Shown: positions 35,043 to 62,067 of the stretch, one piece after another
Layout: every line of letters begins with the position of its first letter
Numbering within the stretch: the stretch's first letter is position 1
Assembly (NCBI GenBank): GCA_029785625.1
Contig: JAFLZI010000001.1
Location: 117,860-181,859 of the forward strand
DNA: 64,000 bases
Direction of reading: 5' to 3'
Source of the DNA: Nitrososphaerota archaeon
GTDB lineage: Archaea; Thermoproteota; Nitrososphaeria; Nitrososphaerales; UBA183
The notes under the pieces: model-generated
The model's input: the letters and a program-made list of their open reading frames with translations, nothing else
Database searches by the model: none
Told to the model about the DNA's origin: nothing
Position numbers and translations under genes: made by a program

Positions 35043-36690
35043 TTGACTTCACCTTCCAATCCGAAGGTCAACACCCTATTCTATGGCGACAATCTCAAGA
35101 TCCTCAGAGACTACTTACGATCTGAAAGCATCGCGCTGATTTATCTCGACCCTCCGTTCAACAATAAGGAGACATACAACGTCCTCTTCAAGGAGAAGGG
35201 CGGTAAACAGTCAGCGGCCCAGATTCAAGCATTCGATGATTTCTGGCATTGGGACGATGCGGCAGAAGCTGCTTATGTTGAGTTACAAGAGCGCTCCCCA
35301 GAGGTAGGCGAGGCCGTCAAGGCTTTCGTCGCCTTCTTGGGAAGGAATGACCTTACCGCTTACCTTGTGATGATGGCGATTCGCCTAGTAGAACTTCATC
35401 GCGTCCTGAAGGACAACGGCTCTCTCTACCTCCATTGTGACCCGACAGCGAGCCATTACCTGAAAGTCATCCTCGATACCATTTTCGGCCCCACTCGTTT
35501 CAGGAACGAGATTTCGTGGAAGAGAACTTACGCCTAGCGGCGCGAATCGATATGGCCCGATTCATGATACCATTTTCTTCTATACCAAATCGGATGAGTA
35601 TGTCTGGCATCCGAAACCCCTCGAATACTCGCAGGAATACCTCGACAATTTCTTCAAGTTCGAAGATTCAAGGGGGCAATATCGACTTACGCTTCTAACT
35701 GGTTCTGGAACGCGCAACGGCTCGTCCGGAAAGCCTTGGCGTGGGATTGACCCGACGAAGATCGGCAGGCATTGGGCGATACCTGGCTATGTCCGACCTT
35801 TGTTGGGGAAGGGACCGTTCCCAGATGTTCAAACGGCGCTTGACAAACTGGACGAGATTGGCCGCATTTCTTGGCCGAAGAAAGAGGGAGGGACGCCGAT
35901 GTTCATGCAGTATAAGGACGATCTTGGTGGCGTCGATGTGCAAGACCTCTGGACTGACATTGGCCCAATCCCACCGCAATCTCCTAAGCGGCTTGGTTAT
36001 CCCACTCAGAAGCCGGCTGCATTGCTCGACAGAATCATAGAGGCCAGTTCTGACGAAGGCGACTGGGTTCTCGACCCCTTCTGTGGTTGCGGGACAGCAA
36101 TCTTCGAGGCCAATGAATTGAAGCGGAATTGGATAGGAATCGACATCACACATCTGGCAATCTCCATTATGAAATCCGCGTTAAGGGAAATGAAGGTCTA
36201 CACGCCCCGCAATTACCAGATTATAGGGGAGCCAACCACATTCAATGAGGCACAGGGCCTCGCCAAGGCCGACAAATACCAATTCCAGTGGTGGTCACTT
36301 TCTTTGCTCGACGCCCGACCAATCGGAGCGCCAGAAGGGAGCAAGGTCGGCAAGAAGGGGGCCGACAGAGGAAGGGACGGTTATCTCACCTTCAAGGAGG
36401 GTAACGACCCCAACTTCCGAAGGATTATCATCCAAGCCAAGGGTGGCGAGAACGTAGGCGCGAGCGACGTACGGGATTTGATTGGGACTGTCAACAACTG
36501 GAAAGCCGCAATGGGGATTCTGATAACCCTAGATGAGCCAACTGAACCCATGAAGACGGAAGCGAGGGACGCTGAATACTACGAATCGCCAACTTGGGGT
36601 AGGAAATACCCGAAGATTCAGATTGTCACCGTGAAGCAACTACTCGAGAAGAAATGGCCGGAAATGCCCTTCCCAAATCCCTTTCAGTGA
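35043..36690 (+). pseudogene. DNA adenine methyltransferase fused to Mrr-like nuclease, frameshifted
   Basis: A beta-class site-specific methylase: DPPF motif IV in LIYLDPPFNNKETYN (residues 30-45), then, after the break, motif I LDPFCGCGTAIFEA. The reading frame is broken by one extra base in TACGCCTAGCGG at about 35535 (TAG stop); deleting it restores YASGANRYGPIHDTIFFYTK. A C-terminal extension of about 130 residues has GADRGRDGYLTF and RRIIIQAKGG, matching the Mrr-type nuclease D...QxK active site. The start is TTG 35043, 26 bases from CTTTATACAA. Confidence 0.7.
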
Positions 36691-36845: not shown

Positions 36846-37901
36846 TAGATTGTAGCATAACTTGAGTTCTGTGTCTATCGCCCTTGTCCTGCCTCCGTAA
36901 TCCGCTCACGGCCTCGGTTGAGGCATGCCTCGTGGAATGTCATGGCACGACTACAACGAATCCCTGGTGGAGAGAGGGAGGGTCCTGTTCGACCTCGGCT
37001 TCGCCAGTCGCTGGAACGACGAACTTGAGGGGATGAACGGCGACAAGACGGGGAGGCCGTACGAGTTCCCAGAGTCCTACATCGAGTTCCTGTCCTTCTT
37101 CAGGGTAGGGTTCAACGCGCCGTACAGGGTGATAGAGGGCATGACCGGGTCACTCTCCGAGTACCTCGCTTTCGTTAAAGAGATGCACTTCACACAGGTC
37201 AGGAGGAGGATACTGGCGATGGTCAAGAGGAAGAAGCCAGAATACGTGGAAAAGATGGCGGAGGGGAAAGACGACGACGCCATCACCGTGGTCGTCGACT
37301 CGACGGGCCTCTCCACCACGAACAAGGGCTCCTACATCGAGGCGATCTGGAGGAAGGAGAAGAGGAAGTTCATCAAGCTCCACGTCGTCGCGGATGGGAA
37401 GACGGGGAAGATCGTCGGGTTCAGGGTGACGTCCGAGAAGACCGGGGACACGAAGAAGTTCGTCCCGATGGTCAGGGAGGTCGCAAGGAAGAGGAGGGTG
37501 GCGAGGGCGTACGCGGACTCTGCCTACGACTCCAGGAGGAACTTCCCTATGCACGAGCGTGGCATCGACCCTGCCATCAAGCTCAGGAAGAACGCGTCGG
37601 AGAAGGCCAAGTGGTCCCCCCTCAGGAAGGACGAGGCGATCCTCGTGCGCAGGGTCGGGTACGAGAAGTGGAAGGAGCTGAAGGGCTACGGCAAGAGGTG
37701 GATGGCAGAGATAGTCTTCTCTGCGTTCAAGAGGGTCCTCGGGGACACCCTCATGGCGAGGAGGTTCCTGAGCCAGAAGGCAGAGGCCACCCTGAAGGTG
37801 GTGCTCTACAACAGGTTCATGTCCTTCTGAGCCGAGAGGTGGCGGACGACGGGTCGAGCTAGAGATACTGGAGCGGCAGAGAACATTATGCTACAATCTA
37901 T
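36846..37901 (+). mobile_element. IS5-like insertion sequence
   Basis: About 1.06 kb. Ends are TAGATTGTAGCATAA (36846-36860) and its perfect inverted copy TTATGCTACAATCTA (37886-37900). Copies of CTGATAAG flank it (36838-36845 and 37902-37909), consistent with an 8-base target duplication. One copy is shared with the adjacent MITE, so the IS landed in the MITE's own target duplication. The element carries one transposase and ends 55 bases before the EF-2 start codon. Confidence 0.8.
36925..37830 (+). CDS. tnpA: IS5-type DDE transposase
   Basis: 301 residues. The DDE motif is visible: first Asp in TVVVDSTGLSTTNKGSY, second in ARAYADSAYDSRRNF, and the Glu in MAEIVFSAFKRVLG (with K-R-W before it). 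The N-terminus is a helical DNA-binding region. All catalytic residues are present and the frame is intact, so the element may be active. High GC in this gene differs from the surrounding low-GC island. Confidence 0.88.
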   Translation: MPRGMSWHDYNESLVERGRVLFDLGFASRWNDELEGMNGDKTGRPYEFPESYIEFLSFFRVGFNAPYRVIEGMTGSLSEYLAFVKEMHFTQVRRRILAMVKRKKPEYVEKMAEGKDDDAITVVVDSTGLSTTNKGSYIEAIWRKEKRKFIKLHVVADGKTGKIVGFRVTSEKTGDTKKFVPMVREVARKRRVARAYADSAYDSRRNFPMHERGIDPAIKLRKNASEKAKWSPLRKDEAILVRRVGYEKWKELKGYGKRWMAEIVFSAFKRVLGDTLMARRFLSQKAEATLKVVLYNRFMSF

Positions 37902-37955: not shown

Positions 37956-40180
37956 ATGCCGAAGTTCAAGACGACAGCAGAAGCCCTGAAGATAGTCCAC
38001 AACAAGGACCAGATACGCAACCTTGGAATCATCGCTCACGTGGACCATGGTATCAACGCCGATAGTCATTCGGCGTTGCCATAGAGACAACCACAAGCGA
38101 TAGTCTCCTAGCTGCGACTGGCATGTTGTCGCCTTCGGTGGCAGGGCAAGCGTTAGCTCTCGACTACATGGAACTCGAGCAGCAAAGACAGATGACCATC
38201 AAAGCCGCCAACGTGACGCTGTACTACGAGTCCGCGGGGAAGCCCTATGTCATCAACCTGATTGATACTCCCGGACACATTGATTTTTCCGGCAAGGTAG
38301 TTCGAAGCTTACGGGCGGTTGACGGCGCAATTGTCGTAGTCGACGCCGTCGAATCCATTATGACCCAGACCGAAACTGTGACCCGTTCGGCCCTTGAAGA
38401 GCGCGTCCGCCCCGTCGTCTACATCAACAAAATCGACCGGCTGATCAAGGAGCTCCGCCTCTCCCCTGAGAAGATGCAGGAGTGGCTCTTCGGCATCGTG
38501 AGGGACTTCAACCGTCTCGTCGAGACATACGCCGAACCGGAGTACAAGCAGAAGTGGAAGGTCTCGGTCCAGGACGCCCAGGTCGCGTTCGGGTCATCGA
38601 AGGACAAGTGGGGATTCAACTTCGACATGGCGAAGGCCGCGGGGATGTCGTTCAAGGACATCATCAACGCGTATCAGAGTTCGACTCCGGAGGAGCTCGG
38701 CAAGAAGCTCCCTCTCCACGAGGCTCTGCTGGGCATGGTCGTCAGGCACCATCCGCCTCCTCACGTCGCCCAGACCTACCGCATCCCGAAGATCTGGCCA
38801 CAGGGGGACCTCAACAGCGACGTAGGGAAGGCCCTCCTCGCCTGCGACGAGAACGGACCCACGGTCATGATGGTCACCAACGTGGTCGTCGACCCCGCCG
38901 CGGGGCTCGTGGCCACCGGGAGGCTCTTCTCCGGCAGCGTCAGCAACGGCGACACGGTCTACCTTCTCAACTCGAAGAGAGAGGGGAAGATACAGTCGGT
39001 CCAGATATTCATGGGCTTTCAGCGGGAGATAGTCGATTCGCTCCCTGCGGGTAACATCCCGGCGCTCCTCGGCCTGGACATCAGGTCGGGGGAGACCATC
39101 TCGAACCAGAAGGGGGTCGCCACGTTCGAGTCCATCCACTATGTCAGCGAGCCCGTCGTCACTGTGGCGGTGGAGGCGAAGCACCCGAGGGATCTCCCCA
39201 AGCTCGTCGAGGTGATGCGGAGGCTCAACATCGAGGACCCGAACCTCGTCATAACGATCAACCAGGAGTCCGGGGAGACCCTCATGGCAGGGATGGGGGT
39301 GCTCCACCTCGAGATAGCCACCACGCAGATTCAGCAGGCGGGGCTGGAGATCATCACCTCGCCGCCAATCATCAACTACAGGGAGACCATCCGCGCGCGC
39401 GCCGGCCCCATCATGGCCAGGTCTCCTAACAGGCACAACAAGATCTTCATCGAGGTCGAGCCCCTTGAGCCCGACGTCGTCGAGCTAATCCGCAACGGGA
39501 CCATAAGCGAGAACGTGGAGACGAAGGGGGTGATCAAGACCCTCCGCGACCACGGATGGGACCCCGACCAGGCCCGCAACTTCCAGGCCGTCGACGAGAG
39601 GGGCAACATCCTGACCGAGGTCACCAAGGGGGTCCAGTTCCTGCAGGAGTCGATGGACTCCATCAGGGCAGGCTTCGACGACATCATGAAGAACGGGCCG
39701 CTCGCCTACGAGTTCACCCGAGGGGTCAAGGTGGCACTCACCAACTTCGTCCCCCACGAGGACCCAGCCCACCGGACCTACGCCCAGCTCATGCCCGCTT
39801 CACGGAGGGCCATACTCGGGGCCATGCTGTCAGCCAACCCCACTCTCCTGGAGCCCATACTGGGGATAGAGGTGAAGGGGCCGTCAGACCTCATAGGCGC
39901 GGTGACCGGGGTCATCAGCGCGAAGAGGGGGAAGCTGGTCAGGATAGACCAGAAGGAGGTCATGACAGTGGTGGAGGGAGAGATCCCCGCGGCCGAGACG
40001 TTCGACCTGAGCGAGAAGATGAGAGGGGCAACGGCGGGCAAGGCTGTCTGGAACACCCACTTCAAGACGTGGCAGGCGGTCCCTCAGAACATGCTGTGGG
40101 GGCTGGTCACGGACATCAGGAAGCGCAAGGGACTCCCGCCGGACCCGCCGAAGGCCGAGGAATTCATCGACAAGGAATAG
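37956..40180 (+). CDS. fusA: Translation elongation factor aEF-2 (spliced gene, one intron)
   Basis: The GTPase that drives ribosome translocation. Exon 1 is 37956-38052 and exon 2 is 38085-40180; joined they encode 730 residues. Exon 1 starts MPKFKTTAEALKIVHNKDQ and stops inside the G1 motif; the join gives IIAHVDHGKTTTSDSLL, the P-loop, with one codon (AAG) split across the exons. G3 is DTPGHIDF, G4 INKIDRL. Length and domain order match archaeal EF-2, with the diphthamide-region histidine expected near the C-terminus. TATA is near 37930, just right of the IS. Without splicing only 42 residues would be made. Confidence 0.92.
38053..38084 (+). other. Bulge-helix-bulge intron in the EF-2 mRNA
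   Basis: 32 bases. Predicted fold: exon ATGG (38047-38050) pairs with CCAT (38079-38082) as the 4-bp central helix; 3-base bulges TAT (38051-38053) and AGA (38083-38085); inner stem CAACGCCGA/TCGGCGTTG (38054-38062 with 38070-38078), loop 38063-38069. Cuts after the second base of each bulge, as the archaeal splicing endonuclease makes, excise exactly the 32 bases that break the frame. The outer helix is weak (one pair, then GTGG/CCAC). Confidence 0.9.
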
Positions 40181-60990: not shown

Positions 60991-62067
60991 ATGACCACGA
61001 TAATAAGGATAGACCCTGTAAATCCGGAGCCGGAGAAGATAAGGGAGGCGGCTTCAGTCATAAGGCGCTCGGGCACGGTAGCCTTCCCGACAGAGACTGT
61101 TTACGGCCTCGGCGCAAGCGGCCTCGATGCCACTGCCTGCAGGAAGATATTCTCCATAAAGGGCAGGCCCGCGGACAACCCGCTCATACTCCACATCCGC
61201 AGCGCTAGCCGCCTCGGCGAGGTTGCCATGGACGCCGGCACCAAGGCCGCCAGGCTATCGAGGGCGGTCTGGCCCGGACCGCTGACTATGGTGCTCAGGA
61301 AGAATCCCCTGATTCCATCTGTGGTCACCGCAGGCCAGGACACTGTCGCCGTCAGGTGCCCAGCCCACAGGATAGCCCTGCGCCTTATAGGGGAGAGCGG
61401 CGTCCCCATAGCGGCCCCTAGCGCCAACATCTCTACCCGGCCCAGCCCCACGAAGTTCGAGCACGTCCTCCAAGACCTCGACGGGAAAGTCGATGTGATA
61501 ATAGACGGCGGCGACACAACCTTCGGCGTGGAGTCAACGATAATAGACATGACCTCGGAGCCGCCGACCCTGCTGAGGCCCGGCGCGTTCACGGTTGACG
61601 ACCTCGAGAAGTACGTCGGCAGAATCTCAGTGCCCAAGAGCCTGCACAACGGCGTGGCCGTTGGTCAGCCGCTTGCTCCCGGCATGAAGTACAGGCACTA
61701 CGCGCCGTCAAAGCGCCTTGCGCTTGCGGACCGCACCTCGGTCATGCTGCATGCGCCTGAGGTGGCCCGTGCCGCCCGCAAGAGGGTCGCCATTCTGTGC
61801 AGCATGGAGACCGCGGCCAGATTGGGTGCGCACGACGCGCAGAGCGCAACGATAATACAGCTGGGCAGCAGTAGCGACCTCTACGACGCGGCGAAGAACC
61901 TCTTCAATGCCTTCAGGGCCCTCGACAGGAGCAGCGCGGAGCTCGGCATAGTCGAGAGATTCGAGGAGCGTGGCCTCGGCCTGGCCATAATGAACAGGAT
62001 CTACAAGGCCACCGGTGGCCTCACCGTAAAAAACGCTAAGGAGCTAGCCATGCTTCTGGGCGGCTAG
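60991..62067 (+). CDS. sua5: Threonylcarbamoyl-AMP synthase (Sua5/YrdC)
   Basis: 358 residues. YrdC domain: SGTVAFPTETVYGLGASGLD, IFSIKGRPADNPLILHI, WPGPLTMVLRKN, VAVRCPAHRIALRLI and PSANISTRPSPT. The C-terminal Sua5 domain starts PGMKYRHYAPSKRL and ends GLGLAIMNRIYKAT. The enzyme makes the threonylcarbamoyl-AMP that KEOPS (with Pcc1 at 51 kb) transfers to tRNA. ATG at 60991 is chosen; an upstream GTG (60952) adds 13 unlike residues. It uses more AUA codons than most of the window. Confidence 0.93.
   Translation: MTTIIRIDPVNPEPEKIREAASVIRRSGTVAFPTETVYGLGASGLDATACRKIFSIKGRPADNPLILHIRSASRLGEVAMDAGTKAARLSRAVWPGPLTMVLRKNPLIPSVVTAGQDTVAVRCPAHRIALRLIGESGVPIAAPSANISTRPSPTKFEHVLQDLDGKVDVIIDGGDTTFGVESTIIDMTSEPPTLLRPGAFTVDDLEKYVGRISVPKSLHNGVAVGQPLAPGMKYRHYAPSKRLALADRTSVMLHAPEVARAARKRVAILCSMETAARLGAHDAQSATIIQLGSSSDLYDAAKNLFNAFRALDRSSAELGIVERFEERGLGLAIMNRIYKATGGLTVKNAKELAMLLGG

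Follow-up and report, generated by a model that had tools for sequence, protein, structure and literature searches.

A predicted bulge-helix-bulge intron in the P-loop of an archaeal EF-2 gene, with counterparts in several archaeal lineages

The gene for elongation factor 2 (EF-2) in a 64,000-nucleotide stretch of a Nitrososphaerota archaeon (GenBank assembly GCA_029785625.1, contig JAFLZI010000001.1, positions 117,860 to 181,859 of the forward strand; hereafter the window) raises the question of what the 32 bases are that break its reading frame inside the P-loop. EF-2 spans 37956-40180 of the window, its frame is lost after HVDHG on straight read-through, and the list of open reading frames shows only 38123-40180 (685 aa), while deletion of 38053-38084 leaves 730 stop-free codons that encode EF-2 with an intact HVDHGKTTTSD. 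The insert is very probably an mRNA intron excised by the tRNA splicing endonuclease EndA, and one member of a family of predicted bulge-helix-bulge (BHB) introns that seems to have repeatedly arisen and disappeared near the EF-2 P-loop across several lineages of archaea. The parts of the gene to which the following analysis refers, all on the forward strand, are:

37956-38052, + strand: EF-2 exon 1, 97 nt, starting ATGCCGAAG and ending GGT A, the last A being the first base of the split Lys codon
38040-38043, + strand: 5' half (GUGG) of a weak outer helix in the predicted fold, pairing with CCAC at 38091-38094
38047-38050, + strand: central helix, exon side, ATGG, from pairing and the predicted fold
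38051-38053, + strand: 5' bulge TA^T, with a predicted cut after 38052 from the BHB rule (PMC2738675, available part)
38053-38084, + strand: predicted BHB intron, 32 nt, from helices, fold and frame restoration
38054-38062, + strand: inner stem, 5' arm, pairing over 9 bp with 38070-38078 across a 7-nt loop
38079-38082, + strand: central helix, intron side, CCAT, from pairing and the predicted fold
38082-38084, + strand: TAG stop in the exon-1 frame, entirely within the intron
38083-38085, + strand: 3' bulge AG^A, with a cut predicted after 38084
38085-40180, + strand: EF-2 exon 2, 2096 nt including the stop codon, with the EF-2 domains in 38123-40177

The core of the insert reads ATGG-TA^T-CAACGCCGA-TAGTCAT-TCGGCGTTG-CCAT-AG^A, in which the 4 bp of the central helix are all Watson-Crick, the two 3-nt bulges (TAT and AGA) lie on opposite strands and joining after the second base of each restores EF-2. 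The original prediction, which had described a split after HVDHG by 32 bases with an in-frame TAG, was borne out in the length and in the TAG, which lies at the 3' end of the insert, and the cuts that it had placed after the second bulge base do give HVDHGKTTTSD with a split AAG codon in an open EF-2 of 730 aa. The predicted RNA fold includes both the inner and the central helices (z = -3.5). A complete central helix (4/4) and an uninterrupted inner stem of 9 pairs or more arose together at this junction in 2 of 300,000 shuffles of the insert. Across the window, BHBs restricted to Watson-Crick pairs with a 9-bp stem numbered 2, one of them that of EF-2, against a mean of 0.25 and a maximum of 2 in 20 dinucleotide-shuffled windows, indicating that the motif alone is not rare and that its exact place in EF-2 is. 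Once G-U pairs were allowed the scan lost its power, with 61 motifs of at least 8 bp in the window against 58.7 expected and hence no excess. The other Watson-Crick match is an overlapping minus-strand site near 61813.

The codons that flank the break in the DNA are ATC (Ile) and GAG (Glu), and neither supplies the P-loop Lys, whose codon (A/AG, the slash here and below marking the break) is present only once the exons are joined, so that this lysine can come only from joined RNA. An EF-2 pseudogene, or an insert that is an error of sequencing or assembly, would also account for a broken frame, and two circumstances lend themselves to this explanation: the metagenome-assembled genome (MAG) that holds the window (G000, 728 kb) is only 61% complete, and an insertion sequence (IS) element lies 55 bp upstream of the gene. 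However, the identical insert is found in two more MAG records (JAFMAI010000004, L032, and JAJZIG010000038, L033), unrelated inserts of the same build occupy the same codon elsewhere, and only one EF-2 was found in G000. The gene also stays under purifying selection with no further break of the frame: relative to its intronless relative L005, codon differences are 143 synonymous and 11 non-synonymous, and 11 of 730 residues differ. Decay or error is therefore regarded as most improbable. A protein database search with the window EF-2 listed no match above 92% identity, a result that is silent on splicing.

The original prediction had suggested a search of related genomes for EF-2 genes split at the same codon; these were found, and the distribution proved wider, with four places of insertion and at least 22 families. 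The search covered 46 genomes of the window's family, 400 of its order, 397 of its phylum (taken to be the Thermoproteota of GTDB), 141 of the class of genome G549 and 126 of the class of genome G470, a sister class which we take to be Thermoprotei; for the order, phylum and G549-class searches, counts are among the matches listed, that is the strongest ones. A total of 125 EF-2 5' regions (93, 12 and 20 in three sets) were tested, many of them picked because they looked interrupted, and 60 carry BHB inserts, which amount to 58 distinct introns of 16-63 nt. The first set comprised 53 interrupted and 34 intact regions and 6 without a solution, namely L029, where the contig begins in the gene, L058, L103, L146 and L147, which hold inteins, and L120 (G117), whose break was left unsolved. 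In the second set 7 of 12 were interrupted and 5 intact; none of the third set was interrupted (20/20 intact). Loci of the first and second sets are distributed over the places IR/N (31 + 5), AH/V (7 + 1), HV/D (1) and G/K (14 + 1), and at 10 of the 14 first-set G/K loci the split follows the first letter of the codon, falling one base later at the other 4. Insert-bearing families are f1, f2, f3, f4, f5, f7, f11, f12, f14 and f17 within the order and f25, f26, f30, f35, f37, f46, f52, f54, f61, f82, f83 and f85 outside the class.

Within the window's own family, an EF-2 match was obtained in 38 of 46 genomes; 32 had a readable 5' end, of which 9 were interrupted and 23 intact. Eight of the 9 interrupted genes carry the insert at G/K (32, 31 or 23 nt, occurring in two phases that differ by one base) and the ninth, G022, has 29 nt at HV/D, three codons before G/K; the AcS1-27 record (L071), outside the 32, has 39 nt at G/K. 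Different BHB inserts are found at the same EF-2 codon in other genera and families. Joining brings back the frame and HVDHGKTT exactly, both in the window and at 59 further loci. Since the solver looks for a join that restores the motif, the independent evidence lies in the helices, in the recurrence of the same places and in the covariation described below. The central helix is complete (4/4) in 49 of 53 first-set and in 7 of 7 second-set loci, and for 31 of 44 introns that split a codon the residue concerned is read on neither side of the break. The shortest case, L107 (G088), is a predicted intron of 16 nt with an inner stem of 3 bp and an in-frame TAA nonetheless.

Because the 5' regions were partly picked by a stop or a late start, a stop-free intron of a length divisible by three could escape this survey. 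Among the order and phylum rows listed and checked by eye, no stop-free row was more than 21 nt too long, and G659 and G648, which were read, were intact. The G470 and G549 classes contain many stop-free rows that are 18-33 nt too long; however, 20 mostly long or typical 5' ends that were read, 17 of them from the long rows of these two classes or from the classes themselves, were all intact, so the additional 18-33 nt are ordinary protein differences. No late start or stop was seen in the 125 genomes with an EF-2 match among the 126 searched of the G470 class, from which ten third-set 5' ends and G659 were read, all intact.

The pairing of exon and intron bases was assessed by dealing, in which the 3' partners were redistributed among the introns of one place. 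At IR/N, true partners pair at 100% in the central helix and 89% in the inner arm, against 79 and 59% for dealt partners, and at G/K at 90 and 89% against 68 and 53%, with 0 of 2000 deals reaching the true values in any of these comparisons. At the two best-sampled places, changes on the exon side of the central helix are thus matched by changes on its intron side. At IR/N, 25 of 31 intron-bearing genes use CGA for the Arg, compared with 7 of 72 intact genes, a preference that a constraint on the exon half of the helix would produce. Intron length ranges from 37 to 63 nt in six genes of family f2 whose exon flanks share 92-100% identity.

A stop codon in the exon-1 frame lies wholly inside the intron in 58 of 58 distinct introns, against 11 and 21 in the other two frames, whereas the mean chance of such a stop in shuffled versions of the first 51 was 0.40. 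All three of TAA, TAG and TGA are used, at varying positions, and in the first set the length is divisible by three in 20 of 51. Introns are related within lineages and some loci were picked by their stops, which makes the independent number smaller than 58; the introns that shift the frame are free of this selection bias and show the stop in 36 of 36 distinct cases. The peptide predicted from an unspliced message would measure 23-38 residues in 36 of 53 loci (start within the stretch) and 42 residues in the window. A short hairpin insert with an in-frame stop is also what ribosomal bypassing would present, in which the insert is kept in the mRNA and ribosomes hop across it. Bypassing is at work in phage T4 gene 60 and in the mitochondrial byp elements, likewise with hairpins and stop codons. 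Identical take-off and landing codons would serve such a hop in 1 of 51 distinct introns (L009) and fail in the other 50, including that of the window with its Ile and Glu flanks, and hopping needs no BHB geometry. There is accordingly very little probability in bypassing.

Several observations have to be weighed against excision by EndA. The outer helix of the window insert is weak, since the minimum-energy fold has one C-G pair and then GUGG/CCAC past an internal loop; the central helix is poor in L096 (2/4 pairs) and in L071, L093 and L094 (3/4); at AH/V, with 7 introns only, 97 and 55 of 2000 deals paired as well as the true partners; the deals ignore the relatedness of the introns; and neither EndA nor RtcB was found in the assembled part of the 61%-complete G000. 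Of the original claim of a canonical BHB, the 4-bp ATGG/CCAT helix, the two 3-base bulges and the 9-bp inner stem hold, but by its modelled fold the insert is a BHB with a relaxed outer helix and "canonical" is slightly too strong. EndA (PF01974) was detected in 40 of the 46 family genomes, 25 of which gave two matches or more, and RtcB in 43 of 46. Both are encoded by G029, whose EF-2 DNA is identical to that of the window; its catalytic-type EndA subunit resembles A. pernix 3p1z, with Tyr, His and Lys aligned, presumably the catalytic residues, and a second EndA-like subunit is without the histidine. Relaxed BHB motifs, including forms lacking the outer helix, are described as accepted by two-subunit EndA in the available part of PMC6379350. 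Every sequence test is compatible with the reading as a BHB mRNA intron, as first proposed, and the covariation between exon and intron at IR/N and G/K supports it.

The original prediction had named a second, intact EF-2 in the same genome as the finding that would speak against it; none was found, G000 holding a single EF-2, and each of 33 intron-bearing genomes at least 95% complete gave one match among the matches listed, every candidate being scored in the window family and the two best candidates per genome in the order and phylum searches. This bears on a further explanation, in which EndA cleaves the EF-2 message at the BHB without joining the pieces and so destroys or regulates it. 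With no other EF-2 found, an intact P-loop needs the joining, and the exact restoration of frame and residue would be superfluous for a cleavage signal, making cleavage alone scarcely credible. As a side observation on copy number, genomes of family f20 (e.g. G549 and G636) have two or three EF-2-like matches each, and one set, 46-50% identical to the query, is read from its sequence as diverged EF-2 paralogues.

In the mechanism proposed for the intron, EndA would cut after base 2 of each bulge and RtcB would ligate the exons; an unspliced message would terminate at the intron stop and yield a short peptide, so EF-2 synthesis would depend on splicing. A doubtful but testable extension is that splicing acts as a gate on EF-2, in many archaeal lineages: nonsense BHB introns, retained or regained around the P-loop, would make its synthesis conditional on EndA, output would fall whenever EndA is scarce or occupied with pre-tRNA, and the stop in every intron would be selected for giving a short peptide instead of a harmful EF-2 with a broken P-loop. 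If true, this would tie tRNA maturation directly to translation elongation. A stop in 58 of 58 introns makes it testable whether archaeal mRNA splicing is tied to translation and whether it is regulatory.

The nearest known counterparts are the introns of cbf5 pre-mRNA in Sulfolobales and Desulfurococcales, which according to the available part of PMC2738675 are short BHBs cut between bulge bases 2 and 3, split a catalytic Asp codon between letters 1 and 2, have been gained and lost among relatives, are linked to hetero-oligomeric EndA and were confirmed as spliced on cDNA; the term "stop codon" is absent from the text of that paper (PMC2738675). The window intron is likewise a short BHB in a protein gene and divides its P-loop Lys codon after the first letter, but its host is EF-2, insertion occurs at four places and its splicing is a prediction. 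In the G470 class, the cbf5-intron group if rightly taken as Thermoprotei, 0 of 125 EF-2 genes look interrupted. The window intron would work like the cbf5 intron yet is not that intron. Archaeal tRNA and rRNA introns share the BHB motif (PMC6379350, available part) and presumably the enzyme, whereas the EF-2 inserts lie in mRNA and combine frame restoration with an in-frame stop. Earlier work, mentioned in the available part of PMC2738675, had predicted putative introns for further archaeal protein genes and for a rudivirus, like the EF-2 introns by prediction and in protein genes; by their titles these reports concern Sulfolobus genomes and 12-bp viral elements, and EF-2 is not named where PMC2738675 mentions them. 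Inteins also enter the EF-2 P-loop, in L058, L103, L146, L147 and L158, just after the lysine (HVDHGK/C...HN/TT), with splicing and LAGLIDADG domains in L146, the only one scanned. They place an intervening sequence at GK/T, one codon from the G/K intron place, but measure hundreds of residues and are removed from the protein. An intron is also known in the XPD gene of Sulfolobales, and the original prediction had named one in an RNA polymerase subunit. No EF-2 BHB intron was found among the open-access (open-licence PMC) papers searched, none of which holds both bulge-helix-bulge and elongation factor 2, and a 2020 paper states, in its available part, that beyond the cbf5 mRNA intron no additional archaeal BHB intron had been reported (PMC7714728). 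The initial suggestion was that an intron in EF-2 may be new.

Annotation misses this split of a highly conserved translation gene, which is present in at least 22 families. Family f2 takes in Candidatus Nitrosocaldus, whose predicted intron lies at IR/N; an nr protein under this name matches the EF-2 of G046 at 100% identity across 97% of its length, and this nr entry for EF-2 has 705 aa, starts MAHVDHGK and is without exon 1. As EF-2 is a widely used phylogenetic marker, such annotation spreads truncated models.

In a FastTree tree built from 110 EF-2 exon-2 proteins, the pattern of intron presence and absence requires a minimum of 17 changes and that of the site states a minimum of 20, figures that are rough with forks left open. 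L005 is without the intron despite its closeness to the window EF-2. The window gene is itself a mosaic, its spliced 37956-38370 being 81% identical to the intronless L005 and its 38371-40180 being 93-97% identical to L005 and L006, which indicates that the 5' part, either intron-bearing or intronless, was moved by recombination. Short identical patches also lie within this mosaic. No donor of the 5' part was found among the loci compared, and the window intron matched no compared locus except copies from the same species. The distribution suggests repeated gain and loss, in which the intron may travel with its flanking exon by recombination, and the several places in one gene, together with intronless close relatives, offer a good system for the origins of BHB introns.

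Some minor observations concern the sequences and elements encountered on the way. Window bases 40027 and 40030 differ from the window's own assembly G000 (L001) and from L004 and L032 and agree with L003 and L033. RtcB matches in G003, G009, G013, G017, G018, G036, G041, G043 and G044 break near profile position 49 or start late and sit in long open frames of 792-1108 aa (887 in G013), which look like putative inteins in the ligase itself. EF-2 has been described, in the available part of PMC6563490, as the commonest thaumarchaeal casposon target, and several kinds of inserted element thus converge on this gene. The IS element upstream of EF-2 occupies 36846-37900, with a DDE transposase at 36925-37830 and perfect 15-bp terminal inverted repeats, ends 55 bp before the EF-2 start and recurs in L003 at 99.5% identity. 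Further upstream, the open reading frame at 35800-36690 joins an N6/N4 DNA methylase domain to an Mrr-type restriction-endonuclease domain.
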